From Methylomonas albis (GTDB lineage Bacteria > Pseudomonadota > Gammaproteobacteria > Methylococcales > Methylomonadaceae): DNA of 64,000 nt. The stretch spans positions 4,836,001 to 4,900,000 of the forward strand of contig NZ_JACXSS010000001.1 in NCBI RefSeq assembly GCF_014850955.1, written 5' to 3'. A program made the translations under genes and the position numbers. The notes below the pieces were generated by a model, which was not told where the DNA came from, searched no databases, and was given only the letters and a program-made list of their open reading frames with translations. Of the stretch, positions 5,043 to 25,335 are shown piece after piece; position 1 is the stretch's first letter; each line of letters opens with the position of its first letter.

Positions 5043-6143
5043 TTACTTTCCATATTGTTCGATAAGGCCGGCAATCGCCTGTAGCGGTAACTCCTGCTGC
5101 ACGGCGCCCAGTTTCATGGCTTCTTTAGGCATACCGTAAACCACGCAGGTTTTTTCATCCTGGCCGGCTGTGCGCGCGCCGACTGCATGCATATCTTTAA
5201 GCCCCCGCGCGCCGTCATCACCCATGCCGGTCATGATGATACCCAATGCGTTTTTCCCAGCCCATTTGGCCACCGAACGAAACAATACATCGACGGACGG
5301 CCGATGCCTATTCACTAACGGCCCATCTTGGACATCAACCACATACTGAGCGCCACTGCGTTTTACGGACATATGCTTACCACCCGGCGCGATTAACGCT
5401 CGACCGGCAATAACCCTATCTCCGCTTACCGCTTCTTTGACTTCAATTTCGCAAATGCTATTCAGACGCGCGGCAAACGCGCCGGTAAATTTTTCCGGCA
5501 TATGCTGCACAATCACAATGCCTGGACTGATTCGAGATAACTGTGTCAACACAACTTCCAAAGCTTGCGTCCCCCCGGTAGAGGTGCCGATTGCCACCAA
5601 GCGGTCCGTGGTAGCCGCCAAAGCGGAAGCACTGGCATTGGCATTGGCATTGGCACTTACGGTCGTTGCTTGCTCATTTTGCACCCGACCAGGCTTAGCG
5701 TGAACCGCCATGGTCATGGCCTTCATACACCGCATATCGGTCATTGCGGCGGCCTTGATCGCATGAATAATGTCGCCGCTATCATCCTCCAAAAAGCTTT
5801 TCAAGCCGGCCTTGGGCTTGGTAACGATACCGGTAGCACCGGCAGACAGCGCCTGCATGGTGGTTTCCGCGCCTTTTTCGGTCAGTGTGGAACAAATCAC
5901 CACCGGTGTCGGCCGTACCGACATAATCTTTTTCAAAAACGTAATGCCGTCCATTCGGGGCATTTCCACATCCAGTACAACCACATCCGGCCAATCCTGG
6001 TTCATTTTCGCCATGGCAAATATCGGATCGGATACGGAACCTAACACCTTAATATCGGCGGACTTGCTCAACAGTTGCGTCAGCACTTGGCGAACCACAG
6101 CGGAATCGTCGACGATCAATACCCCTATTTTTTTGTCGCTCAT
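5043..6143 (-). CDS. cheB: chemotaxis protein-glutamate methylesterase/deamidase CheB
   Basis: Removes methyl groups from receptor glutamates and deamidates glutamines when phosphorylated by CheA. The receiver domain is at about residues 1-125 (acid pocket VDDS, phospho-acceptor D58 in [12 protein letters not shown] lysine). The C-terminal esterase domain starts at about residue 180 and carries S188 in GTSTGG, H214 in [12 protein letters not shown] and the Asp of MTGMGDDGA (D310). The interdomain linker contains an Asn-Ala and Ser-Ala run (about residues 164-173) encoded by a GGCATT hexanucleotide repeat. Its start overlaps the end of cheD by 4 bp. It is the last che gene of the locus. Confidence 0.95.
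5634..5655. repeat. GGCATT hexanucleotide microsatellite inside cheB
   Basis: About 3.7 perfect tandem copies of a 6-bp unit, lying in the cheB interdomain linker and encoding alternating Ala and Asn on the minus strand. Because the unit is a multiple of three, copy-number change would alter linker length without a frameshift. Confidence 0.85.
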
Positions 6144-6646
6144 GCGCTAATCTCCTCTAATTCTTTAGAAATATGCCGCATATACACATGCCCGCTCCAC
6201 AAATCGAAAATAACATTGCGGTGGCCCGTTCCGCCTAAATGCTCGGCTTTTATATGAAACCCGTGTTCCGCCAGCAATGCTCTGCCCGCTAACACGTTGT
6301 TATCGGAAACCCTGAGATTGGCAGGTTTCGAGTGCCCTGGAAACTGGTCCCCACCACCAAACACTTTCACCTCGTAATCAGCAGGCCTGGTTTTGGTTTT
6401 ATGCAACTCTTGCATAAACATCAGCATCGCATCGTCCGCATAACGGCCATCCAAACCTTTGTGGCGTTGTATGCGCCTATTACCCGGCAGCATAAAATGG
6501 CACATACCGCCAATCCGCCGCGTAGGGTGCCATAAGGTAATCGCCACACATGAGCCCAAAACAGTCCTGATGCGCGTTTCGCTATCGCCAAAATACAGCT
6601 CCCCAGGCTGCAAAAAAATGTCGATAAAAAAATCCGGCTTTTTCAT
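6140..6646 (-). CDS. cheD: chemoreceptor glutamine deamidase CheD
   Basis: CheD deamidates receptor glutamines and in some systems interacts with CheC. The catalytic Cys is in [15 protein letters not shown], followed by [10 protein letters not shown] with the catalytic His, and the FGGG block is present. An upstream ATG at 6700 is open, but the ATG at 6646 is preceded by a good GGAAG Shine-Dalgarno and matches family N-termini; it also removes an overlap with cheR, leaving a 13-bp gap. About 168 residues. The 4-bp overlap with cheB indicates translational coupling. Confidence 0.93.
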
Positions 6647-6659
6647 ATAACTTCCAGTC

Positions 6660-7499
6660 TCATGTATTAATCGGTTTGCGATAAATCGACGGTGTAACAA
6701 TTTGCAAATCGGTTTTCATACCACTCAAAGACTCAGAATGACTCACAAAAAAATAACCTCCAGGTTGAAGATATTTGGTAATCCGCTCCAACAAGCGCTG
6801 CTTGGTCTCCATATCGAAATAAATCATCACATTTCTAAGAAAAATAACATCGAACATATCCAAATTCGGTAAGTTGCTGATCAAATTTGCGTAAATAAAC
6901 TTCACATGCTTACGCACCGCAGGATCAATCAAGAAAAACCCATCGAAGTCGCCAGTCCCTTTCAAGCAATATTTCTTTAACAACATCGTCGGGATTTTTT
7001 CGGCAGCATGATTCGGGTACAGACCGCGGCGGGCCTTATCCAAAATACGGCTGGAAATATCAGTCCCCACTATCTCCCACTGCCCCAACCTAGCTTGATT
7101 CGCCAATAACATAGCCAGCGTATAGGCCTCTTCACCACTGGAACTTGCCGCGCTCCATACCCGAAAAGGCTTGCCCGACGAATGCTGAGGCAGAATCTGC
7201 TCGGTCAAATAGTCAAAATGCTTGGACTCCCGAAAAAAATACGTTTCATTGGTTGTCAATAAATCGATCGCCATCGTGGTTTCTTTCTCGAAACCGGGCT
7301 TACCGAATAACCGAAAATATTCGGTGTAGTTGCTCAGTCCATGATGCCGCAGCCGCTTTTCCAAGCGGCCCATGACCATGGCATGCTTACTGTCATTCAG
7401 GACAATACCGGCATGCTTGTACAAATAATCCTTAATCCAGGAAAACTCATGCTTCTGCAGTACCGGAGAAGAGCCATACACACGGTTGTTAGCGGTCAT
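6660..7499 (-). CDS. cheR: chemotaxis protein methyltransferase CheR
   Basis: S-adenosylmethionine-dependent methyltransferase that methylates receptor glutamates. The N-terminal helical domain (LYKHAGIVLNDSKHAMVMGR) is followed by the SAM-binding domain with VWSAASSSGEEAYTLAM, EIVGTDISSRILDKAR and DVIFLRNVMIYFD. About 279 residues, family-typical. The ATG at 7499 is spaced about 9 nt from an AGGG; a GTG at 7505 is the alternative. It lies between cheW and cheD. The 1632-residue receptor ends in a pentapeptide fitting the CheR-tether pattern, so CheR is probably recruited there. Confidence 0.95.
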   Translation of the reverse strand: MTANNRVYGSSPVLQKHEFSWIKDYLYKHAGIVLNDSKHAMVMGRLEKRLRHHGLSNYTEYFRLFGKPGFEKETTMAIDLLTTNETYFFRESKHFDYLTEQILPQHSSGKPFRVWSAASSSGEEAYTLAMLLANQARLGQWEIVGTDISSRILDKARRGLYPNHAAEKIPTMLLKKYCLKGTGDFDGFFLIDPAVRKHVKFIYANLISNLPNLDMFDVIFLRNVMIYFDMETKQRLLERITKYLQPGGYFFVSHSESLSGMKTDLQIVTPSIYRKPINT

Positions 7500-7510
7500 T
7501 GTCACGCACC

Positions 7511-8074
7511 CTACTCAATCGCTCCTTCATGAGCAGGCCCGGCGATGGTTTGCCCCAATGCCGCCATTTCATCCACGGAAAGAACTTTGTTTACGTTCAA
7601 TAAAATTACAAAACGATTGTCGCGTTTCGCCATGCCATTAATAAAATCGGGCCTAATACCGGCGCCGAAACTGGGCGGCGGCTCGATATCCTGCCGGCTG
7701 ATCTCCACCACCTCATTAACGGCGTCAACGATAATGCCAATATCCTGGCTAAGCTCATCTTCGTTTTCGCCGGCGGAGGTCTCGACAATAACAATTCCGG
7801 TACGCTTGACAATTTGCGTTGTCCCCCTCCCGAAACGCGCCAACAAATCGATGACAGGCACCACGCTACCGCGCAAGTTGATCACACCGCGCACAAAAGA
7901 CGGCATCATCGGCACTTCTGTAAGTTGCCCGTAATCGATAATCTCCTTAATGTTTAAAATACCCAATGCGTAAACCTCGCCACCCAATACAAAAGTCAGG
8001 TACTGGCCGGCATTGGCTAACGCGTCAGGGCTTATGGCCGGCAACTGTGCCGACGTGGTTGCTATTGCTCCCAT
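7511..8074 (-). CDS. cheW: chemotaxis coupling protein CheW
   Basis: Adaptor linking receptors to CheA. A single CheW domain is recognisable: QYLTFVLGGEVYALGILNIK, then VRGVINLRGSVVPVIDLLARF and later IGIIVDAVNEVVEISRQDI. At 187 residues it is slightly longer than E. coli CheW, with short extra segments at both ends. It begins 9 bp downstream of the 1632-residue receptor gene and ends 11 bp before cheR. It is the only free CheW in the window; CheA has its own CheW-like domain. Confidence 0.95.
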   Translation of the reverse strand: MGAIATTSAQLPAISPDALANAGQYLTFVLGGEVYALGILNIKEIIDYGQLTEVPMMPSFVRGVINLRGSVVPVIDLLARFGRGTTQIVKRTGIVIVETSAGENEDELSQDIGIIVDAVNEVVEISRQDIEPPPSFGAGIRPDFINGMAKRDNRFVILLNVNKVLSVDEMAALGQTIAGPAHEGAIE

Positions 8075-8083
8075 GACAGCCCC

Positions 8084-11000
8084 CTAGAAGCGTTCAAATT
8101 GGCTTAAATCAAACTCCGCCTCATGCTCGTCCGCATCGCTACTTGGCTTAACCGCTTTGACTTTCTCGATTCGCTTCGGCGCTTTTTTGACGGCGCGTCC
8201 GGCGCTCGGAGCAGCCTGACCGATTTTGAAAAACGCCATCAGAGATTGCAGCTGTTCGGATTGGCCGGTCATCTCTTCCGCTGTCGCCGCCAACTGCTCG
8301 CTGGCCGAGGCGTTTTGCTGGGTGATTTGGTTCATTTGGTTCATCGCATTGTTGACTTGGCTGACGCCGGCCGATTGCTCTTGCGAGGCGGCAGCGATTT
8401 CTTGGACCAGGTCGGAGGTTTTGGCGATGCTCGGTACGATTTCGTCCAGCAGTTTGCCGGCGCTTTCGGCGGTCTTCACGCTGCTGTCCGCCAATTCACC
8501 AATTTCCTGCGCCGCCACTTGGCTGCGTTCCGCCAATTTGCGCACTTCCGCCGCCACCACCGCAAAGCCTTTGCCGTGGTCGCCCGCTCGCGCCGCTTCA
8601 ATGGCGGCGTTTAAGGCCAACATGTTGGTCTGGTAGGCGATGTCGTCGATGATGCCGATTTTGTTGGCGATTTCTTTCATCGCGTCGACGGTTTGTTTTA
8701 CCGCGCCGCCGCCTTCGACGGCTTCTTTGGAGGCTTTGCCGGCCATGCCATCGGTGACTTTGGCGTTCTCGGCGTTTTGGTTGATGCTGGCCGCCATTTC
8801 TTCGATACTGGCGCTGGTTTCTTCCACGCTGGCGGCTTGTTCGCTGGCCGCTTGCGATAGCGACTGCGAGGTGGAGCTGATTTGCTCGGAAGCATTGGTC
8901 AGCTGGTCGGCCGCGACGATCACGTCGCTTATGGTTTTGGAGAGGTTGGCAATGGTGTTGTTGACGGTATCTTTGAAGTCGCCGAGTTGACCACGGTAGT
9001 CGCCCCTTACGGTGCGGGTCAAGTCGCCTTGTTCGACCAGGGACAGGACTTCGACCGCTTCGTTGAGCGGTAGAATCACCCCATCCAGGGTATCGTTGAC
9101 GCCTTCGACGATTTTACGGAAGTCGCCTTGGTGTTTGCCGGCATCCGCGCGGGTTTGCAGGCGACCTTCCTGGGCGGCAGATGCCAGCAGGTTGGCGTCG
9201 GCCACCAAAGCATTGACGGCATCGATGCAGGTGTTGAGGTTGTTTTTGATGACGTTGAAGTCGCCGTTGTAGGTGTCGGTGATCTTGGCGGGAATGTTGC
9301 CGCGGGAGATGTTGTCGACATAATTTGCAGCCACGTTGAGCGGACCGATCACGGCATCCAGGGTGTTGTTGACGCCTTCGACGATTTTCCGGTAGTCGCC
9401 TTGGTATTGGCTGGCGTCGGCGCGGGTGGCCAGGCGGCCTTCGATCGCGGCTTTTTCCAGTGCAGCGGCTTCGGTCACCATGTTGCTGATGGCGTCGATG
9501 CAGTTGTTCAGGTTGTTTTTGATGGTGTTGAAGTCACCGTTGTAGGTGTCGGTGATTTTCGCCGGGATGTTACCTTTGGAGATGTTGTCCACGTAGTCCG
9601 CTGCCACGTTCAAGGGGCCGATCACGGAGTCCAGGGTGTTATTGACGCCTTCGACGATTTTGCCGAAGTCGCCTTGGTGTTTGCTGGCGTCGGCACGGGT
9701 GGACAAGCGGCCGTCCACGGCGGCTTTGGCCAGTAGGTTGGCGTCGGCCACCAGGGCGTTGACGGCATCGATGCAGGTGTTGAGGTTGTTTTTGATGACG
9801 TTGAAGTCGCCGTTGTAGGTGTCGGTGATCTTGGCGGGAATGTTGCCGCGGGAGATGTTGTCGACATAATTTGCAGCCACGTTGAGCGGACCGATCACGG
9901 CATCCAGGGTGTTGTTGACGCCTTCGACGATTTTCCGGTAGTCGCCTTGGTATTGGCTGGCGTCGGCGCGGGTGGCCAGGCGGCCTTCGATCGCGGCTTT
10001 TTCCAGTGCAGCGGCTTCGGTCACCATGTTGCTGATGGCGTCGATGCAGTTGTTCAGGTTGTTTTTGATGGTGTTGAAGTCACCGTTGTAGGTGTCGGTG
10101 ATTTTCGCCGGGATGTTACCTTTGGAGATGTTGTCCACGTAGTCCGCTGCCACGTTCAAGGGGCCGATCACGGAGTCCAGGGTGTTATTGACGCCTTCGA
10201 CGATTTTGCCGAAGTCGCCTTGGTGTTTGCTGGCGTCGGCACGGGTGGACAAGCGGCCGTCCACGGCGGCTTTGGCCAGTAGGTTGGCGTCGGCCACCAG
10301 GGCGTTGACGGCATCGATGCAGGTGTTGAGGTTGTTTTTGATGACGTTGAAGTCGCCGTTGTAGGTGTCGGTGATCTTGGCGGGAATGTTGCCGCGGGAG
10401 ATGTTGTCGACGTAGTTGGCGGCGACGTTGAGCGGGACGATCACGGCATCCAGGGTGTTGTTGACGCCTTCGACGATTTTCCGGTAGTCGCCTTGGTATT
10501 GGCTGGCGTCGGCGCGGGTGGCCAGGCGGCCTTCGATCGCGGCTTTTTCCAGTGCAGCGGCTTCGGTCACCATGTTGCTGATGGCGTCGATGCAGTTGTT
10601 CAGGTTGTTTTTGATGGTGTTGAAGTCACCGTTGTAGGTGTCGGTGATTTTCGCCGGGATGTTACCTTTGGAGATGTTGTCCACGTAGTCCGCTGCCACG
10701 TTCAAGGGGCCGATCACGGAGTCCAGGGTGTTATTGACGCCTTCGACGATTTTGCCGAAGTCGCCTTGGTGTTTGCTGGCGTCGGCACGGGTGGACAGGC
10801 GGCCGTCCACGGCGGCTTTGGCCAGTAGGTTGGCGTCGGCCACCAGGGCGTTGACGGCATCGATGCAGGTGTTGAGGTTGTTTTTGATGACGTTGAAGTC
10901 GCCGTTGTAGGTGTCGGTGATCTTGGCGGGGATGTTGCCGCGGGAGATGTTGTCGACGTAGTTGGCGGCGACGTTGAGCGGGACGATCACGGCATCCAGG

Positions 11001-12982
11001 GTGTTGTTGACGCCTTCGACGATTTTCCGGTAGTCGCCTTGGTATTGGCTGGCGTCGGCGCGGGTGGCCAGGCGGCCTTCGATCGCGGCTTTTTCCAGTG
11101 CAGCGGCTTCGGTCACCATGTTGCTGATGGCGTCGATGCAGTTGTTCAGGTTGTTTTTGATGGTGTTGAAGTCACCGTTGTAGGTGTCGGTGATTTTCGC
11201 CGGGATGTTACCTTTGGAGATGTTGTCCACGTAGTCCGCTGCCACGTTCAAGGGGCCGATCACGGAGTCCAGGGTGTTATTGACGCCTTCGACGATTTTG
11301 CCGAAGTCGCCTTGGTGTTTGCTGGCGTCGGCACGGGTGGACAAGCGGCCGTCCACGGCGGCTTTGGCCAGTAGGTTGGCGTCGGCCACCAGGGCGTTGA
11401 CGGCATCGATGCAGGTGTTGAGGTTGTTTTTGATGACGTTGAAGTCGCCGTTGTAGGTGTCGGTGATCTTGGCGGGAATGTTGCCGCGGGAGATGTTGTC
11501 GACGTAGTTGGCGGCGACGTTGAGCGGGACGATCACGGCATCCAGGGTGTTGTTGACGCCTTCGACGATTTTCCGGTAGTCGCCTTGGTATTGGCTGGCG
11601 TCGGCGCGGGTGGCCAGGCGGCCTTCGATCGCGGCTTTTTCCAGTGCAGCGGCTTCGGTCACCATGTTGCTGATGGCGTCGATGCAGTTGTTCAGGTTGT
11701 TTTTGATGGTGTTGAAGTCACCGTTGTAGGTGTCGGTGATTTTCGCCGGGATGTTACCTTTGGAGATGTTGTCCACGTAGTCCGCTGCCACGTTCAAGGG
11801 GCCGATCACGGAGTCCAGGGTGTTATTGACGCCTTCCACCAATTTACGAAAGTCACCTTGATGTTTAGACGCATCAGCGCGAGTACTTAACTTACCTTCC
11901 ACAGCAGCCATAGCCAGCAGATTGGCGTCGGCGACCACCGCTTTCAAGTTACCGCGCACCAATTCAATAGTTTCGTTGATAAAGACTTTTTTACCTGGTA
12001 ATTTTTCCATCGGCGCATCGAAGTTACCATCTCCAAAGGCTCTAAATACCGCCATCGCAATCTTCTTAACAGCAATGTGTCCATTAACCATATCGTTAAC
12101 GCCTTTGGCTACGGCTTTAAAGCTGCCGTGAAATTTGTGCTGATCGACAACGACGTCTATCTCGCCTTTTTCATGTTCATTAGCCATGTGATCCATTTCG
12201 GCCAATAGGGCTTTAATGTTATCGCTCAGCCGCTTCATGTTAGCCATCACACTGGTTTCATCGCCGGCTCGCACCGGAATTTGGCTGTCCAAATCACCTT
12301 GCGAAATGTTATACGCCAAGTCCGCTACCAAGCTCGGCTCTCCACCCAGCTGCCGCATTAGATTGCGGGCAATGAATAAACCCAGGGCGCCAACAATGGC
12401 AGCCGCCAGTAGTGAAATCAGGATGGAAATGGTGGTTGCTGTGGATTGAATAGCCACCGCCTCATCCGAAGATTGCTTACCCAGACGCTGATTGTAGCCA
12501 CTGTGATTTTTGAAAGCAGTCAGCAGTTTGTCGACCACGGCTTGATTGGACATCATGAAATCGCGCGCTTCACCGTTCTTATTTAGCCTGGAGAGGTCGC
12601 GAACTTTTAATCTTAACTTGTCATACTCCGCCAAAGCGCTTTTATCTTCGGCCAAAAGTCTTTTATCTTCGTCGTCCGCCAAAAACTTTTCGTAGTCCTT
12701 CAGCAACTTATCAATATTGGCACGTTTGCTGTCTATTTCTTTCTCCACAGGAACCATAGCAGCATCTTCGGTTTCGGTCAGATGTTGCCAGACATGAGCA
12801 CGAACCCCGGATATTTCACCGACGATGTCGTTCAACAGCAAGACGCTAGGCAAAGTGTTGATAGTATTGAAATTGGTTGCGGTATAGACCTTATCGATCT
12901 GTACGTAATTGAAGCTGGCCAAACCCGCCAACCCCAATACGGCCGACCCGATTAATAACAACATGCGTTGTGTGACTGTCAT
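8084..12982 (-). CDS. giant poly-HAMP methyl-accepting chemotaxis protein, 1632 residues
   Basis: Transmembrane chemoreceptor. Order seen: TM1 (about 7-24), an about 155-residue helical periplasmic sensor region resembling 4HB_MCP, TM2 (about 181-203), then a very long HAMP-like array, the MCP signalling domain with hairpin tip ([20 protein letters not shown]), and a tail ending QFERF. By eye there are about 25 HAMP-like units: three divergent ones, five tandem 182-residue repeats of four units each (about residues 348-1258), and two more before the signalling domain. The terminal QFERF fits the CheR-tether pentapeptide pattern x-[HFYW]-x-x-[HFYW]. The ATG follows an AGAGGG Shine-Dalgarno. 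DNA from about 8222 to 11835 nearly duplicates the neighbouring receptor gene. The ligand is unknown. Normal receptors are about 550 residues. Confidence 0.93.
8222..11835 (-). repeat. 3.6-kb near-identical duplication, copy 1
   Basis: This segment matches 13554-17167 colinearly at a fixed offset of 5332 bp and covers the signalling domain and most of the repeat array. Both outer edges are sharp: below 8222 and above about 11835 the two receptor genes differ strongly. Such abrupt ends with near-identity inside point to recent gene conversion or partial duplication between neighbours rather than slow divergence of whole genes. Confidence 0.88.
9208..11937 (-). repeat. five tandem 546-bp repeats encoding HAMP-like units (receptor 1)
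   Basis: The array consists of five head-to-tail copies of a 546-bp unit (5 x 546 = 2730 bp). Each unit comprises two diverged 273-bp halves: one encodes [19 protein letters not shown] and the following ISKGNIP region, the other [18 protein letters not shown] and ISRGNIP. Copies are almost identical at DNA level and differ mainly in small clustered synonymous blocks. The reading frame is kept throughout, so copy-number change would preserve the protein frame. Boundaries are approximate and were read by eye. Confidence 0.9.
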
Positions 12983-13090
12983 TGTTAAACCCTCTGATTA
13001 TTTAAAAAAGTTTCGCTCGCGCGTTATTCAATTTCTGCATCCCTTACGGTGCCACTTGCTCACCGCGATTTCGCCGATCTCCTTTGTAAT

Positions 13091-13126
13091 CGGCACCGTT
13101 TTAAAACGACACCTATGACGGTGCCG
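13091..13126. promoter_or_regulatory. inverted repeat in the spacer between the giant receptor genes
   Basis: In the 151-bp gap between the two receptor genes, CGGCACCGT (13091-13099) is repeated inverted as ACGGTGCCG (13118-13126), an exact 9-bp match with an 18-nt spacer that contains the palindrome GTTTTAAAAC. It could form an mRNA stem-loop that changes downstream receptor expression or mRNA stability, or be an operator. No U-tract follows in the transcribed direction, so it is not a typical terminator. Role unknown. Confidence 0.45.
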
Positions 13127-13133
13127 TCTGCGC

Positions 13134-16100
13134 TTACAAATGCGCTCGTTTTTTTAATTCCGTAATTGCCAATCCCACCTCGCTGGACGCGGTGGCATAT
13201 GCGCTGCCTCTATCCAACATCGATTCGGCAGTCTCATATTGGCCACTATTGATAATTTCTGCGACTCTGCCCGCCTCCTTGTGAAATGCAGCGTGCTTTT
13301 GCAGACAATCTTTAAAGCTGGCTAATTGCTGAAATTGCTTTTGACCGGGACCGTGCAACCACTTACCCAATTTGCAACAGTTGTCCCTACCGATAGTTGC
13401 CGAATCCATCTGCTCGTGCTGACTAATCCCCCGGCGTAGCTTGATTTTCCATTCACTATGGGCTTGCAGCGCCGCGTCCAAATCGATGGACTCAACCTCG
13501 GCCGCTACTGCCGGTGATTTTCCGGTTGCGGCGAAACTCTGTCCGCCTTTAGAGATTTTGAAAAACGCCATCAGAGATTGCAGCTGTTCGGATTGGCCGG
13601 TCATCTCTTCCGCTGTCGCCGCCAACTGCTCGCTGGCCGAGGCGTTTTGCTGGGTGATTTGGTTCATTTGGTTCATCGCATTGTTGACTTGGCTGACGCC
13701 GGCCGATTGCTCTTGCGAGGCGGCAGCGATTTCTTGGACCAGGTCGGAGGTTTTGGCGATGCTCGGTACGATTTCGTCCAGCAGTTTGCCGGCGCTTTCG
13801 GCGGTCTTCACGCTGCTGTCCGCCAATTCACCAATTTCCTGCGCCGCCACTTGGCTGCGTTCCGCCAATTTGCGCACTTCCGCCGCCACCACCGCAAAGC
13901 CTTTGCCGTGGTCGCCCGCTCGCGCCGCTTCAATGGCGGCGTTTAAGGCCAACATGTTGGTCTGGTAGGCGATGTCGTCGATGATGCCGATTTTGTTGGC
14001 GATTTCTTTCATCGCGTCGACGGTTTGTTTTACCGCGCCGCCGCCTTCGACGGCTTCTTTGGAGGCTTTGCCGGCCATGCCATCGGTGACTTTGGCGTTC
14101 TCGGCGTTTTGGTTGATGCTGGCCGCCATTTCTTCGATACTGGCGCTGGTTTCTTCCACGCTGGCGGCTTGTTCGCTGGCCGCTTGCGATAGCGACTGCG
14201 AGGTGGAGCTGATTTGCTCGGAAGCATTGGTCAGCTGGTCGGCCGCGACGATCACGTCGCTTATGGTTTTGGAGAGGTTGGCAATGGTGTTGTTGACGGT
14301 ATCTTTGAAGTCGCCGAGTTGACCACGGTAGTCGCCCCTTACGGTGCGGGTCAAGTCGCCTTGTTCGACCAGGGACAGGACTTCGACCGCTTCGTTGAGC
14401 GGTAGAATCACCCCATCCAGGGTATCGTTGACGCCTTCGACGATTTTACGGAAGTCGCCTTGGTGTTTGCCGGCATCCGCGCGGGTTTGCAGGCGACCTT
14501 CCTGGGCGGCAGATGCCAGCAGGTTGGCGTCGGCCACCAAAGCATTGACGGCATCGATGCAGGTGTTGAGGTTGTTTTTGATGACGTTGAAGTCGCCGTT
14601 GTAGGTGTCGGTGATCTTGGCGGGAATGTTGCCGCGGGAGATGTTGTCGACATAATTTGCAGCCACGTTGAGCGGACCGATCACGGCATCCAGGGTGTTG
14701 TTGACGCCTTCGACGATTTTCCGGTAGTCGCCTTGGTATTGGCTGGCGTCGGCGCGGGTGGCCAGGCGGCCTTCGATCGCGGCTTTTTCCAGTGCAGCGG
14801 CTTCGGTCACCATGTTGCTGATGGCGTCGATGCAGTTGTTCAGGTTGTTTTTGATGGTGTTGAAGTCACCGTTGTAGGTGTCGGTGATTTTCGCCGGGAT
14901 GTTACCTTTGGAGATGTTGTCCACGTAGTCCGCTGCCACGTTCAAGGGGCCGATCACGGAGTCCAGGGTGTTATTGACGCCTTCGACGATTTTGCCGAAG
15001 TCGCCTTGGTGTTTGCTGGCGTCGGCACGGGTGGACAAGCGGCCGTCCACGGCGGCTTTGGCCAGTAGGTTGGCGTCGGCCACCAGGGCGTTGACGGCAT
15101 CGATGCAGGTGTTGAGGTTGTTTTTGATGACGTTGAAGTCGCCGTTGTAGGTGTCGGTGATCTTGGCGGGAATGTTGCCGCGGGAGATGTTGTCGACATA
15201 ATTTGCAGCCACGTTGAGCGGACCGATCACGGCATCCAGGGTGTTGTTGACGCCTTCGACGATTTTCCGGTAGTCGCCTTGGTATTGGCTGGCGTCGGCG
15301 CGGGTGGCCAGGCGGCCTTCGATCGCGGCTTTTTCCAGTGCAGCGGCTTCGGTCACCATGTTGCTGATGGCGTCGATGCAGTTGTTCAGGTTGTTTTTGA
15401 TGGTGTTGAAGTCACCGTTGTAGGTGTCGGTGATTTTCGCCGGGATGTTACCTTTGGAGATGTTGTCCACGTAGTCCGCTGCCACGTTCAAGGGGCCGAT
15501 CACGGAGTCCAGGGTGTTATTGACGCCTTCGACGATTTTGCCGAAGTCGCCTTGGTGTTTGCTGGCGTCGGCACGGGTGGACAAGCGGCCGTCCACGGCG
15601 GCTTTGGCCAGTAGGTTGGCGTCGGCCACCAGGGCGTTGACGGCATCGATGCAGGTGTTGAGGTTGTTTTTGATGACGTTGAAGTCGCCGTTGTAGGTGT
15701 CGGTGATCTTGGCGGGAATGTTGCCGCGGGAGATGTTGTCGACATAATTTGCAGCCACGTTGAGCGGACCGATCACGGCATCCAGGGTGTTGTTGACGCC
15801 TTCGACGATTTTCCGGTAGTCGCCTTGGTATTGGCTGGCGTCGGCGCGGGTGGCCAGGCGGCCTTCGATCGCGGCTTTTTCCAGTGCAGCGGCTTCGGTC
15901 ACCATGTTGCTGATGGCGTCGATGCAGTTGTTCAGGTTGTTTTTGATGGTGTTGAAGTCACCGTTGTAGGTGTCGGTGATTTTCGCCGGGATGTTACCTT
16001 TGGAGATGTTGTCCACGTAGTCCGCTGCCACGTTCAAGGGGCCGATCACGGAGTCCAGGGTGTTATTGACGCCTTCGACGATTTTGCCGAAGTCGCCTTG

Positions 16101-19100
16101 GTGTTTGCTGGCGTCGGCACGGGTGGACAAGCGGCCGTCCACGGCGGCTTTGGCCAGTAGGTTGGCGTCGGCCACCAGGGCGTTGACGGCATCGATGCAG
16201 GTGTTGAGGTTGTTTTTGATGACGTTGAAGTCGCCGTTGTAGGTGTCGGTGATCTTGGCGGGAATGTTGCCGCGGGAGATGTTGTCGACGTAGTTGGCGG
16301 CGACGTTGAGCGGGACGATCACGGCATCCAGGGTGTTGTTGACGCCTTCGACGATTTTCCGGTAGTCGCCTTGGTATTGGCTGGCGTCGGCGCGGGTGGC
16401 CAGGCGGCCTTCGATCGCGGCTTTTTCCAGTGCAGCGGCTTCGGTCACCATGTTGCTGATGGCGTCGATGCAGTTGTTCAGGTTGTTTTTGATGGTGTTG
16501 AAGTCACCGTTGTAGGTGTCGGTGATTTTCGCCGGGATGTTACCTTTGGAGATGTTGTCCACGTAGTCCGCTGCCACGTTCAAGGGGCCGATCACGGAGT
16601 CCAGGGTGTTATTGACGCCTTCGACGATTTTGCCGAAGTCGCCTTGGTGTTTGCTGGCGTCGGCACGGGTGGACAAGCGGCCGTCCACGGCGGCTTTGGC
16701 CAGTAGGTTGGCGTCGGCCACCAAAGCATTGACGGCATCGATGCAGGTGTTGAGGTTGTTTTTGATGACGTTGAAGTCGCCGTTGTAGGTGTCGGTGATC
16801 TTGGCGGGAATGTTGCCGCGGGAGATGTTGTCGACATAATTTGCAGCCACGTTGAGCGGACCGATCACGGCATCCAGGGTGTTGTTGACGCCTTCGACGA
16901 TTTTCCGGTAGTCGCCTTGGTATTGGCTGGCGTCGGCGCGGGTGGCCAGGCGGCCTTCGATCGCGGCTTTTTCCAGTGCAGCGGCTTCGGTCACCATGTT
17001 GCTGATGGCGTCGATGCAGTTGTTCAGGTTGTTTTTGATGGTGTTGAAGTCACCGTTGTAGGTGTCGGTGATTTTCGCCGGGATGTTACCTTTGGAGATG
17101 TTGTCCACGTAGTCCGCTGCCACGTTCAAGGGGCCGATCACGGAGTCCAGGGTGTTATTGACGCCTTCGACGATTTTGCCGAAGTCGCCTTGGTGTTTGC
17201 TGGCGTCGGCACGGGTGGACAGGCGGCCGTCCACGGCGGCTTTGGCCAGTAGGTTGGCGTCGGCCACCAGGGCGTTGACGGCATCGATGCAGGTGTTGAG
17301 GTTGTTTTTGATGACGTTGAAGTCGCCGTTGTAGGTGTCGGTGATCTTGGCGGGGATGTTGCCGCGGGAGATGTTGTCGACGTAGTTGGCGGCGACGTTG
17401 AGCGGGACGATCACGGCATCCAGGGTGTTGTTGACGCCTTCGACGATTCTGCCGAAATCGCCTTGGTGTTTGGTGGCGTCAGCCCTAGTGGACAGTTTGC
17501 CTTCAACTGCAGCTTGCGACAGCACCCTGGCATCGGCAATAAGCGCCTGCACTGAAAACACCGCCGCCTTTATGCCCTCATTGAGCTGATTGAATTCCAA
17601 ACCGTAATTGTTGGTGTCTTGTCGCGGCATTTGGCCTTGGCCGAACATCGTCAAAGCCTGCGTCATGGATTTTACCGGCCTAAGCACACCCATCACGATG
17701 TACCAACTAAGTGCCAAGAAACTGCTCAGCGAGAGTAACAACACTGTTAGGGTAGTAAAAATGATCGAATTTATCCTCTCCAAACGGGCATCGAAACCAC
17801 TATTTAGTAGCTGGCCCAGTCCGGCGGATTTCGCATAATACTGGTTGATGCTGGTGCTTAAAGTTTGTACATAGTCCTTAGCGTCTGACTGTGATCTGGT
17901 GGAATTCAGAATTTTTTCTTCCGTGAGCGCTAATGCTTGCTTGGCATCCTGACTGGCTTTAAGCAGTGCTGAGCGGGTGAGGTCGTCAAGCAGGTCAATT
18001 TTGGCGATGGTTTCATCGATTATCGCCAAATTTTCCTCGGCGGCACTGTTCAGTTCGTGTAAAGCGCCATGGTCGGCTGCCGCTTTTCCTTCCGTTATTG
18101 GTAGGACTATGGCCCGCATCATTTCAAGTTTTTCGGTTAAGTCCGGCACTTGGTTAATGGCGAATACGGCCAAGTAGTAAGTACCGGCTTCCGGATCCAA
18201 GGCAATACCCGATTTTTCCGTTATCGAGCGGTTAAATGCGTGTAACTGCTCAACGAATTCGTTATGTTTGTCATAATTGGCACTGACACCCAGTTGATTA
18301 ACATCTTTTATCAGCTCCTGCCATTGCTTGCGCAATTGACTCCACGCGGATGTCAACCCGAGCGCCGATAAATGGCTGTCTACTTTGTCGATTACCTGAA
18401 GTTGTTGAGCAACTTCGTTACGTTTTGTCTCCCAGCTACCAGCCTCTTTACCGTTACCGCCCAATACGGCAGCGCCTAAATTGCGGTGTTCCAGCACCAG
18501 CTGCATTAATTTGATGGTTTCCGAGCTATAGTCCACGCCTTGTTTCTCTTTAAGCGTGGCGCTCTTTTCTTCCAGGCTGCGGCTAATGAGTAAATAGGTA
18601 GGCACCGCGAACATCAATATGGCTAAAAAAATCAAAGCGATAAATTTTTGCCCCAGCTTTATACCTGTTAACAACTTGTTGATTTTTCTGTCTTGAAAGG
18701 GGTTTTTTATGCCGCCGGCTTTGATACGCGTATATAAAGACGCAGCCTCGTTAACCTCTTCTCGGCTAGGTCTGAAACGAATAGAGCGATAGCCGACAAT
18801 CCGTCCGTCGGTATAAATCGGAGACACATTGGCATCCACCCAGTAGTAATCGCCGTTTTTGGATCTGTTTTTGACTAAACCGCGCCAACTACATCCGGAC
18901 ATAATCGTCTGCCACATCCATTCAAAGGCTTCCGCGGGCATGTCGGGATGGCGCACTATGCTGTGAGCTTGCCCAAGCAACTCCTCCTCGCTAAAGCCGC
19001 TCAGTTTTACAAAAGCCGGACTAACACTGGTTATATGTCCATCCAGATCTGTGGTGGAGGCAAGAACATCTTCTTCAGAAAAATGCAGTTCGGTATTTGT

Positions 19101-19121
19101 AACAGGCTGATTATTTCTCAT
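13134..19121 (-). CDS. giant PAS/poly-HAMP/CZB chemoreceptor, 1995 residues
   Basis: Order seen: an N-terminal PAS domain (about 15-125) resembling the FAD-binding PAS of the aerotaxis receptor Aer ([35 protein letters not shown]); TM1 (about 157-178); a periplasmic helical region; TM2 (about 455-478); about 25 HAMP-like units including five 182-residue repeats (about 617-1527); an MCP signalling domain nearly identical to that of the neighbouring receptor; and a C-terminal chemoreceptor zinc-binding (CZB) domain with [15 protein letters not shown] and HAAFHKEAG supplying His and Cys ligands. It lies 32 bp downstream of cheA. Redox or energy sensing through the PAS, with zinc or oxidant input through CZB, is inferred from family knowledge. 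It lacks a CheR-tether pentapeptide. Confidence 0.93.
13554..17167 (-). repeat. 3.6-kb near-identical duplication, copy 2
   Basis: Partner of 8222-11835. Colinearity is broken by small marker blocks: for example, GACAGGCGG with GGCGGGGATG occurs in one receptor-1 unit (about 10728-10960) but here only just beyond the duplication edge (about 17152-17380), not at the equivalent position near 16060. This shows that units have been copied or shuffled between array positions. Confidence 0.88.
14540..17269 (-). repeat. five tandem 546-bp repeats encoding HAMP-like units (receptor 2)
   Basis: Five head-to-tail 546-bp units of the same two-half design as in the neighbouring receptor, preceded on the protein N-terminal side by one extra 273-bp hybrid unit (to about 17545). 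Two alternative synonymous blocks mark the copies: ACATAATTTGCAGCC versus ACGTAGTTGGCGGCG. They occur in a different order from those in receptor 1, giving a mosaic pattern. Boundaries are approximate. Confidence 0.9.
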
Positions 19122-19153: not shown

Positions 19154-21334
19154 TCACGCTGGATATAGCTGTGTATTGCGCTGGAGTTTTTGTTCAAAAG
19201 AACTGACCAACACCGGCACATCCAGGATTAACGCCACTTCGCCGCTGCCCAATATGGTGGAACCGCCCAAGCCCTGAACATGGGCAAACAGTTTGCCCAA
19301 TGGCTTGATGACGGTTTGGAATTCACCGAGTAGACGATCCACGACCAACCCGGTTTTGCTACCGGCCACCTCAACGACTATGACGTTGGAGCGGCGCGGC
19401 GGTTGCTCAACTATGCCGAACAGACTGCGGAGACGGATAAACGGCAATACTTCACCGCGTAAATCCATGTAATCGTGAGTTTCTGTGTCGTTGGTTAATT
19501 CCAGGCATTCCACCACCCGATCCAGCGGCACAACGAACGATGCCTTACCGACGCCAACCAAAAAGCCATCGATAATCGCTAGGGTGAGCGGCAAACGAAC
19601 CCGTATGGTGGTGCCAACGCCCATGCTGCTTTCAACTTCGATGCTGCCGCGCAAATCAGTGACATTGCGCTTCACCACATCCATGCCCACACCGCGACCG
19701 GACAAGTTGGAGATTTGCGCGGCCGTGGAAAAGCCCGGCTCGAAGATAAGCGCGTAGACTTCCTGATCGGTCAGTTTGGCATCAGCCGCGACCAGGCCTT
19801 TCTCAACAGCTTTTGCCAAAATGCGCTCGCGGTTTAAGCCACCGCCATCATCGCCAACCTCAATGGCAATGGTGCCCGACTCATGATAGGCATTCAGGCG
19901 CAGGCTGCCTTGACTGGGCTTGCCGTTTTGTTGGCGAACTTCGGCCGACTCGATGCCGTGGTCCATGGCGTTACGCACCAAATGCATCAGCGGATCGCCA
20001 ATTTTTTCGACAACGGATTTATCTACTTCGGTATCACCGCCGGTTATAACCAAATTGATCTCTTTGCCCAGATCCTTGCTGACGTCCCGAACCACGCGCT
20101 GGAAACGGCTGAATGTCGAGCCTATGGGCACCATGCGTAATTGCAATGCGCTATCGCGAACCTCTTCGACTAGGCGCATCATTTCGCTCGTCGCTTCCAA
20201 GAGCACTGTTTCGGCGACTTGCAGCGCACGCAAGTTCACACCGGCACTGGAGATCACCAGTTCGCCAATCAGATCGATCAACTTGTCCAGGCGCTCCGCA
20301 TCTACCCGAATACTCTGATTTTCACGGGCTTTGTTGTCTTTGATCTGCTTTTGTTTTTCCAACGCTGCATTGATCAAAGGCTGCTGGACGACACGCTGCC
20401 CTACCAATATTTCGCCTATCGGTTGCGCTGTCTGGCTGTTTTCGGAATCTATTTTTTGCTTGCTTAAGCCTTCGTCCAACTCGCGTTTGGTCAACACACC
20501 GCTTTTTACCAGTAGCTCACCGAGGAAAATATCGTCTTCCGGCAAGGAACGAATCAATTCAATGTAATCACCAATGGCACTTTCCAAAGGCAAGATGTGT
20601 ATCAAGCTATCGCCACGGACAAACTCGAATACATTTTCCAACGCTTCCTTGCCGGCATGGCTTTTAACGTCTATCTCAAAGCCCAAATAATTAGTTTCCG
20701 GATCCATGTCCTCGGCAGCCGGAATACTGTTGGTGATGGTCGTCAGATTGACGATATTGCCTAGCGTAGAGAGGTAGCGGATGAAGGACAAAGGGTCCAT
20801 ACCACTGCGTAAGCTGTCTGCACCAAATCGCAAGGACAAATGCCAGTCGCCTGTTTCCACATCCCCGCCGCCCGAGGCTTCGAAACGCTCCTGAGCCGGT
20901 GTAAAGGCCGCTACTTTGTTATCGCTATCGCACTCCAGAAAAGGCCTTAACTCGACTAACAGATCATCTCCGGCGGCTGTGGTCGTCGGATTTTCATCGA
21001 CATCGCCATCGATTACCGCGCGGATCAGTAAAGCCATGTGATCGCAGCAAGGCAGCAACACAGCGATCAACTCGGAGCTTACCGCCACCTTACCCTCACG
21101 GACCAGGTCTAAAACACTTTCCACTACATGGGTAAATTTAACGATATGATCGAGTCCAAATAAGCCGGACGAGCCTTTTATCGTGTGTGCGGCGCGAAAT
21201 ATGGAATTAATCCGTTCCGTGGGATCTTCGCCATCTTCAAGACTTAGCAGGCCATCTTCCATATCCTGCAATAACTCCAGACTTTCTATTGTAAAAGTGA
21301 CCAGAGCCGCCTTCATTTCAGCATCGATACTCAT
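19154..21334 (-). CDS. cheA: chemotaxis histidine kinase CheA
   Basis: Autophosphorylating sensor kinase of the chemosensory array, donating phosphate to CheY and CheB. The Hpt domain carries the phosphorylated His at about residue 50 (FRAAHTIKGSSGLFG). Residues of about 140-330 form a linker region not matching a classical P2 CheY-binding domain, and include an element like the N-terminal part of type II secretion ATPases (LGELLVKSGVLTKRELDEGL). Then come the dimerisation region (VDAERLDKLIDLIGELV), the ATPase (LMHLVRNAMDHGIES, DDGGGL, GRGVGMDVVKRNV) and a C-terminal CheW-like domain. 726 residues. It starts 5 bp after the STAS gene and is followed by the giant PAS receptor. Confidence 0.95.
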   Translation of the reverse strand: MSIDAEMKAALVTFTIESLELLQDMEDGLLSLEDGEDPTERINSIFRAAHTIKGSSGLFGLDHIVKFTHVVESVLDLVREGKVAVSSELIAVLLPCCDHMALLIRAVIDGDVDENPTTTAAGDDLLVELRPFLECDSDNKVAAFTPAQERFEASGGGDVETGDWHLSLRFGADSLRSGMDPLSFIRYLSTLGNIVNLTTITNSIPAAEDMDPETNYLGFEIDVKSHAGKEALENVFEFVRGDSLIHILPLESAIGDYIELIRSLPEDDIFLGELLVKSGVLTKRELDEGLSKQKIDSENSQTAQPIGEILVGQRVVQQPLINAALEKQKQIKDNKARENQSIRVDAERLDKLIDLIGELVISSAGVNLRALQVAETVLLEATSEMMRLVEEVRDSALQLRMVPIGSTFSRFQRVVRDVSKDLGKEINLVITGGDTEVDKSVVEKIGDPLMHLVRNAMDHGIESAEVRQQNGKPSQGSLRLNAYHESGTIAIEVGDDGGGLNRERILAKAVEKGLVAADAKLTDQEVYALIFEPGFSTAAQISNLSGRGVGMDVVKRNVTDLRGSIEVESSMGVGTTIRVRLPLTLAIIDGFLVGVGKASFVVPLDRVVECLELTNDTETHDYMDLRGEVLPFIRLRSLFGIVEQPPRRSNVIVVEVAGSKTGLVVDRLLGEFQTVIKPLGKLFAHVQGLGGSTILGSGEVALILDVPVLVSSFEQKLQRNTQLYPA

Positions 21335-21339
21335 ATCCG

Positions 21340-21633
21340 TTAATCCCCGTTATGCGAGATGACCACCTGATCGCCAAATGCAGCAGTCAGATTAGCGAGT
21401 TCCAGAATGTCCAACACCACCTTGCTATGCATGACAAATCGCAAGCGCTTACCGGTTTGGGCTGCTTCTCGCTTCACCAAAATCAATAACTGCAAACCGG
21501 CGGTATCCATTTCCATGACGCCGGACAGATTAATTTCTAGCTCGTCACCGGAACCTAAAAAACTAAGCAAATTAGGCTTCTGATCCGATGCGGTAAAGAT
21601 AGTTAACTCGTCTTCTATAGTTAGCGTTTGCAT
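21340..21633 (-). CDS. STAS-domain protein in the che locus
   Basis: Small single STAS domain (about 97 residues), the fold of anti-sigma-factor antagonists and of adaptor proteins found beside cheA in several chemosensory operons. The core INLSGVMEMDTAGLQLLILVK has Asp-Thr where phospho-regulated antagonists carry Asp-Ser; Thr could still be a phosphosite but this is not established. The ATG at 21633 follows AAGGG with good spacing; an in-frame start at 21651 is possible. The 5-bp gap to cheA implies tight coupling. Its molecular partner is unknown. Confidence 0.85.
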   Translation of the reverse strand: MQTLTIEDELTIFTASDQKPNLLSFLGSGDELEINLSGVMEMDTAGLQLLILVKREAAQTGKRLRFVMHSKVVLDILELANLTAAFGDQVVISHNGD

Positions 21634-21713
21634 TGTGGAACCCTTGATCATAAGATTGATAAGCCCGAAACCTCGGACGAACCGTCCAGCGTTAAGCCGC
21701 CGAAAGTGTGTAC

Positions 21714-22082
21714 TTAAGGGAGAATCAACTTGGAAACCGCCGCCAACATTTGCGCGGGCTGGAATGGCTTTACCACCCAGGCCTTGGCACCGGCCGCCTG
21801 CCCTTCCTGTTTCTTACCTTCCTGGGACTCTGTGGTTAACATAATCACCGGAGTGAATTTGTACGCCGCCAATTGTTTGAGTTCCTTAACAAAGGTGATG
21901 CCATCCATATTAGGCATATTGACGTCGGAAATAACCAAGTGAACCTTTTGCCCGGTCAATTTGCTCAAGGCATCTTTCCCATCCACGCCTTCAATTACAT
22001 CGTATCCAGCGCTTTTTAAAGCAATGCTGACCACTTGACGAACTGAAGCGGAGTCATCGACAACTAATATCGTTTTTGCCAT
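21714..22082 (-). CDS. cheY: chemotaxis response regulator CheY
   Basis: Single receiver domain of about 122 residues. Visible: acid pocket VVDDS (D9, D10), phospho-acceptor D53 in LVISDVNMPNMDG, the Thr pair in MLTTES and the lysine in VVKPF. The open frame reaches 22148, but the ATG at 22082 gives the canonical CheY N-terminus MAKTILVVDDSAS and avoids overlap with the receptor gene just upstream (10-bp gap). It is the only stand-alone CheY in the window. Whether it acts on a flagellar motor, pili or another output cannot be told. Confidence 0.94.
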   Translation of the reverse strand: MAKTILVVDDSASVRQVVSIALKSAGYDVIEGVDGKDALSKLTGQKVHLVISDVNMPNMDGITFVKELKQLAAYKFTPVIMLTTESQEGKKQEGQAAGAKAWVVKPFQPAQMLAAVSKLILP

Positions 22083-22092
22083 TTTCTTTACC

Positions 22093-23175
22093 CTAGAAAA
22101 AAGTGATTTCGGTAGATGTTTGTTCTTGATGGTGTCCTTGACCGCCATGGGAGCGATGCTCGGACTCCATCGTGTAAGTGCTTCTCAGGTCGTGCAGAAT
22201 TTCATCGGTTGCCAGAGGCTTCAAACTCTTAGCGCCGTCGGCGTGACTCTTCATGACATGCCGGGGCAAATCGCCGATGCTGTCGCGCACATGCATTAAA
22301 ACTTGGCCAATCCGATCTTGAAATTGAAATTGCACCAAGGATTCATCAATTTCGCGCTTAATCACCCTCGCTTGACTATCCATATCATCTGAATGTTTGC
22401 GGAGTTGATCGAATACGCCATGCAATGCATTCATCACCGTTTGAATATTGCCATGCGAAGCGGCAACGGCGGCTGTTTCGTTTTCAGTGCTTTTTTCCAC
22501 CGCGACAAGCGTAGTTTGAATCGCCGCACTGACTTGTTCGACTTTGGAGCCGATTAATTTACCGGTTTCCCCGGACAAATTGGATAGTTTCCTAACTTCG
22601 TCGGCCACCACCGCAAATCCTCGGCCCGCTTCTCCGGCTCTAGCGGCCTCAATCGCGGCATTTAAGGCAATCAAATTGGTTTGCTCGGCGATCCGCGCCA
22701 CTTCTCTGGCCATATTTTTCAGCTCTTCGATAAATCCTGCCAACGAGCGAATTTTGGTCAACACCTGCAGATTTTCTTGCAACGCCGCATCCAGCGAACC
22801 GACAACTTTTTGCAGGTTGGCGTTGCTACTTGAAAAAACGTCTTCGTTACCGCCGATTCCCGAACCAGTCGAAACACTGAGCACACTATCGAGGCTGGTG
22901 GTGATACCGGCAAACCGCCCGGTTAATTCACCGATAGCCTGCTCCATTTGTTGTCGAGACGTTTCGACGTGCGATGCCCACACCGGCGCTATGTCATTGG
23001 CGAACTTGTCGATACCGGCAAGATATTTTTCCAGCTCGGCTATCGGCAAGGATGGCGGAGGCACTGGTTTATTTGCTTGTTCAGCAAGCAAACGCCGTTT
23101 AATCAGCGAGGAACCCAGCCAGCCACTGAACAGAGATGCCAGCAATAACAGAATCAAAACTTGATAAATCACCAC
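22093..23175 (-). CDS. short MCP-like receptor with CheZ-like DxxGQ motif
   Basis: A 360-residue receptor-like protein. One N-terminal membrane segment (about 3-20) is followed by a cytoplasmic coiled coil containing an MCP hairpin core ([19 protein letters not shown], about 166-184). There is no periplasmic sensor and no HAMP domain. Near the C-terminus, [13 protein letters not shown] (284-296) contains D287 and Q291 spaced exactly as the catalytic Asp and Gln of the CheY phosphatase CheZ. The tail is His-rich and ends ITFF. It starts with GTG after an AAGGAGA Shine-Dalgarno and is first in the che locus, 10 bp before cheY. A dual receptor/phosphatase role is inferred, not shown. Confidence 0.85.
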
Positions 23176-23403: not shown

Positions 23404-23745
23404 ATGACCATGAACAATTACCCTGAAAAAGCCTGTGATATAGACCGATTGGTTCGCCACCCGAAACTGGTAGCCGCAACGCTGGCCGGCGAAAAAACCC
23501 AGCAACGCCGCGACGGCATATATGCGTACCCCGGCGAAACCTTTTTGTTGGAAGAGGTAGTGTTCGAAGTGACTAGCGTAGTGCGCCAAAGATTAGGCGA
23601 CATGAGCGACGCGGATGCTAGAGCCGAGGGCTATCCGAGTCTGGCGATGTATAAGGATTTAATTCTGAAAATGCACAGTGGCATGGAGTGGAACGAGGAC
23701 GGACTGGTCTGGGTACACAGCTTCAGCCGTCAACAGCTGGAATAA
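23404..23745 (+). CDS. ASCH-domain protein
   Basis: Small protein of about 113 residues with the ASCH fold layout (AATLAGEKTQQRRDG, FLLEEVVFEVTSVVRQRLGD, and a terminal LVWVHSF). ASCH proteins resemble PUA domains and include RNA-binding factors and the amidohydrolase YqfB; the function here is unassigned. An upstream in-frame start at 23380 exists, but the ATG at 23404 (or 23410) fits relatives better; no strong Shine-Dalgarno is visible. Its 3' end overlaps the convergent DUF2063 gene by 23 bp. It is divergent from the che locus. Confidence 0.7.
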   Translation: MTMNNYPEKACDIDRLVRHPKLVAATLAGEKTQQRRDGIYAYPGETFLLEEVVFEVTSVVRQRLGDMSDADARAEGYPSLAMYKDLILKMHSGMEWNEDGLVWVHSFSRQQLE

Positions 23746-25332: not shown

Positions 25333-25335
25333 GAC

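Follow-up and report, generated by a model that had tools for sequence, protein, structure and literature searches.

Equal stacks of HAMP domains in neighbouring giant chemoreceptors of Methylomonas albis and of most relatives with such pairs

Bacterial chemoreceptor genes often lie side by side, and in the locus described here two such neighbours raise the question of why receptors with different sensors and different total lengths should carry stacks of exactly the same number of HAMP domains. The locus lies in a 64,000-nucleotide stretch of the Methylomonas albis genome (the window; C1:4836001-4900000 of a 5.39-Mb assembly in 2 contigs, labelled G000 below). Its subjects are two adjoining genes on the minus strand, P1 and P2, which are intact open reading frames (ORFs) encoding methyl-accepting chemotaxis proteins (MCPs) of 1632 and 1995 aa, as a preliminary description of this DNA had read them. 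That description had also proposed about 25 HAMP-like units per receptor, in five 182-residue repeats each. It did not include the equal length of the twins, which recurs in most neighbouring pairs of related bacteria and is the most informative feature of the locus.

The two receptors differ at their ends and resemble each other in between. P1 starts with a four-helix-bundle ligand domain, and P2 opens with a PAS domain, has two membrane helices separated by 273 residues and closes with a CZB domain. Both possess an MCP signalling domain (Pfam PF00015, E 3.7e-37 and 1.8e-39) that forms the signalling hairpin with a conserved tip when aligned with E. coli Tar, and all the HAMPs are located between the second membrane helix and this domain. 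Tandem Repeats Finder detected 273-bp arrays of 10.3 copies in P1 and 11.4 in P2, each 273-bp (91-residue) repeat consisting of two different HAMPs, A and B; the proposed five longer repeats thus hold for P1, with five near-identical periods, and not for P2, which has five and a half. Once the units had been read out and hidden Markov models (HMMs) built from them, 25 HAMPs were counted in each receptor of this one assembly: 11 A, 10 B, one C-terminal and three N-terminal in P1, and 12 A, 11 B, one C-terminal and one N-terminal in P2. For P2 the unit HMM alone gives 24, and the 25th, next to the membrane, comes from the best-scoring Pfam HAMP stretch (residues 478-519, above E 0.001 on its own) together with the spacing, which corresponds to 24.9 units. 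The route to the common total is therefore different, as P1 has two extra special HAMPs and P2 one extra two-HAMP repeat.

The HAMP identity of the repeats, previously assigned by eye, is borne out by several lines of evidence. The Pfam model HAMP_2 (PF18947, 67 residues) scores 1127 and 1223 bits in the twins, with 11 stretches of P1 and 12 of P2 passing E 0.001, and the array profile matches a histidine kinase and Aer2 by sequence (E 2e-17 to 2e-7). Poly-HAMP chains, an already described type, have a single conserved glycine in place of DExG at the connector-AS2 junction (PMC3570549, partial text); in 48 aligned sequences of the array this glycine is invariant at positions 78, 124 and 169 and present in more than 90% at position 33. 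A 196-residue segment of the array, modelled with AlphaFold as a monomer from the same number of aligned sequences, has a mean predicted local distance difference test score (pLDDT) of 94 and helices at 2-18, 34-64, 79-109, 124-155 and 170-195, whose four connectors indicate four HAMPs in series, the number suggested earlier for 182 residues. The model shows the repeat as a regular chain, with a predicted helix-connector-helix fold in every unit; successive HAMPs would be joined by fused helices of about 31 residues, each leaving one HAMP and entering the following one without a break. The continuous helical stack first envisaged is thus present in the predicted structure. The best Foldseek matches of the model in the PDB are three Aer2 poly-HAMP entries (probability 0.99-1.00), followed by Af1503 HAMPs, at E values of 0.027 at best and none at or below 0.001. 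The model of P1 HAMPs 1-3 has low confidence (mean pLDDT 69.5) and a HAMP-compatible helix spacing, and is not relied on here.

Length was measured from the end of the second transmembrane helix (TM2) to the tip glutamate, both in the twins (1257/1260 residues) and in receptors encoded at the loci of relatives, whose HAMP counts range from 3 to 25. Long pairs that match are found in G002 (620/617 residues, 11 HAMPs), G023 (711/709, 13), G116 (1080/1073, 21), G248 and G249 (891/894 and 893/891, both with 17) and, in other genera, G071 (438/440, 7) and G073 (1078/1074, 21). Shorter groups agree as well (G009 346/348/349, G016 349/350/346, G008 345/351, G050 262/258). Among 30 adjacent same-strand pairs at most 2000 bp apart, 21 were used; eight were dropped because a partner had no two membrane helices or no tip (L039, L176, L180 with 679 aa, L217, L222, L231 twice, L232) and one because a contig ends within it (L058, 751/644). 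For three receptors (G016 726 aa, G008 1003 aa, G005 975 aa) the length was assigned manually from inspection of the sequence. In 14 of the 21 pairs the two lengths lie within 10 residues of each other; partner shuffling gives 2.6 such pairs on average and never reached 14 in 200,000 trials (maximum 10). For long pairs the figures are 8/15 against 1.4 and, with one long pair per genome and G249 dropped, 7/12 against 1.2 (p 1.5e-5). This test ignores relatedness; matched long lengths differ between most genomes, so most matches are not simply inherited.

Matching is a property of neighbours. Genome-wide matching was considered and rejected, since loci within one genome differ: G009 has 11 HAMPs at one locus and 5/5/5 at another, and G005 has 19 at its che operon with 7 and 5 among receptors elsewhere. 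The exception is G073: its two operon receptors each have an estimated 21 HAMPs (HMM counts 21 and 20, spacing 20.9 and 20.8), and a further receptor, encoded on a different contig and built of different unit types, also has about 21. A third poly-HAMP frame lies beside this 21-HAMP pair on contig C97 (L180 508-2547, minus strand); it contains HAMPs and no signalling tip, and stops before the contig end. The counts are mostly odd, which fits growth by two-HAMP modules, and several estimates are even (G034 16, G047 about 16, and others); no claim is made on parity.

How might such agreement be kept? CheA, CheW, CheR and CheB are co-encoded with the twins, as is the CheD that the preliminary description had named. 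The reading that we favour, with chances that we regard as evenly balanced, is that P1 and P2 are matched membrane-anchored rods in the array of a single CheA/CheW/CheR/CheD/CheB system and that selection keeps their lengths matched. P1 with its four-helix-bundle sensor and P2 with its PAS/CZB sensor would share one baseplate, and their rods would therefore have to be equally tall. Repeats would expand and contract by unequal recombination, gene conversion would make the twin arrays alike, and selection would favour those combinations in which the twins match. Receptors of different heptad length classes have been reported to sort into separate arrays, for which an insertion of 14 residues in the signalling domain suffices (PMC6759762, partial text). 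With 25 HAMPs the baseplate would be placed about 75 nm from the membrane, a sum of about 2.3 nm per HAMP (from the model, a 31-residue fused helix being taken to span two HAMPs) and 17.9 nm for the 34H coiled coil at 1.05 nm per heptad pair (PMC6628036, partial text). The 3.5 nm per HAMP used in the same source gives about 105 nm. A published geometric estimate, in which at most two HAMPs were counted, puts the longest chemoreceptor at 54.5 nm (PMC6628036, partial text), a maximum that the twins' predicted height would exceed. It is somewhat less probable, and in our opinion a little short of even, that HAMP stacks act more generally as a modular spacer setting array height, from about 34 nm (7 HAMPs) to about 75 nm (25), with lengths changing by two-HAMP modules and co-encoded receptors kept in register.

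Gene conversion alone might produce the same pattern if neighbouring arrays merely copied each other, with no selection on length. Aligned from the tip, the twin arrays have in-register DNA identities of 95-100% over most blocks in G000, G002, G023, G116 and G248 and of 90-100% in G249, near-identity which indicates that conversion is at work. Plain copying of arrays, however, equalises the number of repeats and not the total. In four genomes P1 and P2 differ by one two-HAMP unit (10/11 in G000, 4/5 in G023, 8/9 in G116, 6/7 in G249), exactly offsetting the two extra HAMPs of P1, and the totals agree; G248 and G249 both reach 17/17, though P1 starts H1-A-B in one and H1-H2-N3 in the other. The order of haplotypes in G000 and G116 is a mosaic and not that of a simple copy, and G011 presents conversion without matching. 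Matching also occurs without recent conversion in G071 and in G073. DNA identity between the two G073 operon receptors, taken in 91-codon blocks back from the tip, is 67-88% in the first eleven blocks and falls to 44% in the twelfth; in the single unit that was compared, synonymous sites are close to saturation. Of the 14 pairs whose last HAMPs are not near-identical, 8 match (2.7 expected, p 7e-5), and six of these eight have the common short lengths of 3 or 5 HAMPs. Long pairs without recent conversion match in only 2 of 8 cases (0.5 expected; 10,608 of 200,000 shuffles, about 5%, do as well), so that the long pairs taken alone lend weak support to selection acting independently of conversion. 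This result lowers our estimates for the matched-rod and spacer proposals and raises those for conversion and for neutral drift. On balance we consider it unlikely that length matching is a by-product of conversion; the simplest supplement to conversion would be selection for equal height, which as an inference is the weakest link of the argument.

Neutral drift appears more doubtful still. According to this explanation the stacks are a slippery repeat of no geometric role and receptors bend or fold, so that height is irrelevant; the range of 3 to 25 HAMPs between relatives, the receptors in which no membrane helix was detected and the mismatch of 7 of the 21 pairs speak for it. Agreement within pairs is nonetheless far above that obtained by shuffling, and ratios of non-synonymous to synonymous substitution (dN/dS) between single units of different genomes are 0.05-0.41 in the 9 of 21 comparisons that could be computed, the other 12 being saturated at synonymous sites and the units unmatched for subtype. 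That the copy number is an artefact of assembly is very improbable: near-identical 546-bp periods are hard to assemble and drafts do end inside arrays (G006 C39, G020 C42), but the window genome has 2 contigs, long arrays are also present in G002, G005, G007, G011, G116, G248 and G249, each assembled in one or two contigs, and random collapse would destroy matched twins, not create them.

Several observations weigh against matched rods under selection. One third of the pairs (7/21) do not match: G011 896/620 and 620/258, G024 802/257, G152 891/255, G005 437/659 and 349/568, and G223 443/490. G011 is a clear failure, its long receptors having 17 and 11 HAMPs with last HAMPs 99% identical and no che gene between them. 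The mismatched pairs are not random. In one G005 pair (G005b) and in G223, an insert that is not a HAMP and looks PAS-like is present in the longer receptor; cheW lies between the receptor genes in G024, G152 and the second G011 pair, and also between matched ones in G073, G009 and G050; and the retrieved G005 locus has no match to the che genes of the window. Pairs separated by 210 bp or less match in 10 of 11 cases, those farther apart in 4 of 10 (Fisher one-sided 0.02, with the cut picked after the data were seen). The outcome depends somewhat on how TM2 is called, as raising the hydropathy cut-off from 1.55, the main value, to 1.6 shifts the TM2 of window P1 and its G002 and G023 orthologues by 11-12 residues, giving 631/617 in G002, 723/709 in G023 and agreement within 10 residues in 12/21 pairs (2.5 expected) or within 15 in 14/21 (2.6 expected). 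Measured from the first-HAMP proline to the tip, independently of this cut-off, the lengths are 1246/1251 in the window, 609/611 in G002 and 700/705 in G023. A further difficulty is an MCP-like protein with one transmembrane helix and without HAMP, encoded at 18 of 23 loci, which could not share a straight tall array or reach a tall baseplate. In G007, G013 and G008 (L043, L050, L051) the same operon slot holds a single poly-HAMP receptor of 14-18 HAMPs in which no membrane helix was detected, so such arrays may be purely cytoplasmic. The published rule on segregation concerns the heptads of the signalling domain, which is 34H in both twins, and its extension to HAMP number would be our own. 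Finally, the array model is a monomer whereas HAMPs work as dimers, which places dimer geometry, straightness and signalling outside it, and G073 is a draft of 310 contigs.

The affiliation of the system was examined by comparison with E. coli. CheD and poly-HAMP receptors had suggested kinship with Aer2, and membership of the Aer2/F7 class was ruled out on two grounds. Among the four CheA genes (PF02895) of the genome, the best matches of E. coli CheA, CheB, CheR and CheW are in a cluster at C1 ~1.562 Mb (that of CheY is in a cluster at 0.35 Mb) and not beside the twins; this F7-like cluster has its own CheD and a separate 781-aa PAS/HAMP receptor, as in Aer2. In addition, each arm flanking the tip is seven residues shorter in P1 and P2 than in Tar (36H), which makes the twins 34H, whereas Aer2-like receptors are 36H and P. 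aeruginosa Aer2 has no membrane regions (PMC7184735, partial text). Aer2 of Pseudomonas aeruginosa (F7; PAS and five HAMPs; PDB 3LNR, 4I3M, 4I44) resembles the twins in its divergent HAMPs in direct series and is the best fold match; the twins differ, as they are 34H and have two membrane helices, and it is the 781-aa protein that represents the Aer2-like type in this genome. A 34H receptor with two membrane regions has been assigned to the F8 system of Methylomicrobium alcaliphilum (PMC7184735, partial text), and the twins have both features; from these receptor features our guess is that their system may be F8. The membrane-baseplate distance expected in M. alcaliphilum is about 22 nm, no such array having been seen there according to the same partial text, against about 75 nm predicted here. 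The CheA of the window is closest to a sister cluster at C1 ~3.048 Mb of the same genome (CheA 50%, CheB 63%, CheY 74% identical), which also encodes CheD, a STAS protein and an MCP-like protein (423 aa), and which differs in that the receptor gene beside its cheA is of normal length (546 aa).

The repeat was also sought more widely. In a sample of 398 genomes of the phylum the repeat was detected at E 1e-30 only in the window's own genome; at 1e-50 it occurs in 44 of 237 genomes of the family, own included, and a long array was found in one (G034) of 16 genomes from other families of the order. Such receptors have homologues of the window's che genes beside them in 22 of the 23 loci examined, and poly-HAMP chains have been described before (PMC3570549, partial text), so the term "undescribed system" in the preliminary description was too strong. 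Agreement in HAMP number between neighbouring receptors was not found in the literature searched, which was available in part. Chains of about 31 HAMPs have reportedly been seen. In the long poly-HAMP chains of Dunin-Horkawicz and Lupas (2010) and Airola et al. (2010), as in the twins, divergent HAMPs follow one another in tandem and a conserved glycine is present. Both the units and the type of receptor are of a known kind, and the new part is the length agreement of most neighbours over 7-25 HAMPs.

The features of the locus are collected in Table 1. All lie on the minus strand in an operon-like order: MCP-like protein, CheY, STAS protein, CheA, P2, P1, CheW, CheR, CheD, CheB. A promoter- or terminator-like site was searched for at 12900-13200 and none was found, which is weak evidence for co-transcription of P1 and P2. 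The closest named relatives of the N-terminal part of P2 are in Methylomonas koyamae and M. methanica (50% and 59% identity in the best segments).

Table 1. Coordinates of the receptor genes, their domains and the neighbouring che genes, counted from the first nucleotide of the window.
Feature	Position	Strand	Basis
P1, giant MCP, 1632 aa, 25 HAMPs	8084..12982	-	ORF, Pfam, unit HMMs
P1 four-helix-bundle ligand domain (4HB_MCP_1, residues 1-176)	12455..12982	-	Pfam
P1 second transmembrane helix (residues 187-205)	12368..12424	-	hydropathy; stricter cut-off gives 175-193
P1-specific HAMPs 1-3 (canonical, McpB_HAMP_2-like, HAMP_N3-like; residues 213-345)	11948..12346	-	profiles; low-confidence model
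P1 repeat array, 11 A + 10 B HAMPs (residues 346-1303)	9074..11947	-	tandem repeats, unit HMMs, model
P1 MCP signalling domain, 34H class	8321..8746	-	Pfam, Tar alignment
P1 C-terminal QFERF	8087..8101	-	sequence
P2, giant MCP, 1995 aa, 25 HAMPs	13134..19121	-	ORF, Pfam, unit HMMs
P2 cytoplasmic PAS domain (residues 31-113)	18783..19031	-	Pfam
P2 region between membrane helices (residues 180-452), without clear Pfam match	17766..18584	-	hydropathy, Pfam
P2 second transmembrane helix (residues 453-471)	17709..17765	-	hydropathy
P2 first HAMP and repeat array, 12 A + 11 B HAMPs	14406..17684	-	tandem repeats, Pfam, unit HMMs
P2 MCP signalling domain, 34H class	13653..14078	-	Pfam, Tar alignment
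P2 CZB zinc-binding domain	13263..13460	-	Pfam
cheW	7511..8074	-	
cheR	6660..7505	-	
cheD	6140..6700	-	
cheB	5043..6143	-	
cheA	19154..21334	-	
STAS-domain protein	21340..21651	-	
cheY	21714..22148	-	
MCP-like protein with one transmembrane helix, without HAMP, 360 aa	22093..23175	-	

The C-terminal QFERF of P1 resembles a CheR-binding pentapeptide. In the one-helix MCP-like protein the distance from membrane helix to tip is about 151-160 residues in most related loci with a homologue. A C-terminal stretch of 14 residues resembles the CheZ phosphatase motif, and Pfam gives a weak CheZ match (E 0.061); judged by sequence, the protein is possibly an MCP-CheZ hybrid. After the che block, at 23723-25908 on the minus strand, are genes for a DUF2063/NGO1945-type protein, an MbnB/TglH/ChrH-type enzyme for ribosomally synthesized and post-translationally modified peptides (RiPPs) and a VTT-domain membrane protein. 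The window genome also encodes a further poly-HAMP receptor (L039 2272-4614, minus strand; 780 aa) in which no membrane helix was detected and which adjoins a 637-aa membrane MCP.

The matching of lengths between neighbouring receptors suggests that these bacteria build unusually tall, even sensor arrays, and it turns array height into a question that can be tested. Related bacteria offer an almost threefold range of receptor length, attained by whole HAMP modules, and thereby a natural test of the length-class rule against total height, of the distance that a signal can travel through serial HAMPs and of the maximum height of an array. If HAMP stacks do serve as a modular spacer, natural species would constitute a ready-made length series.

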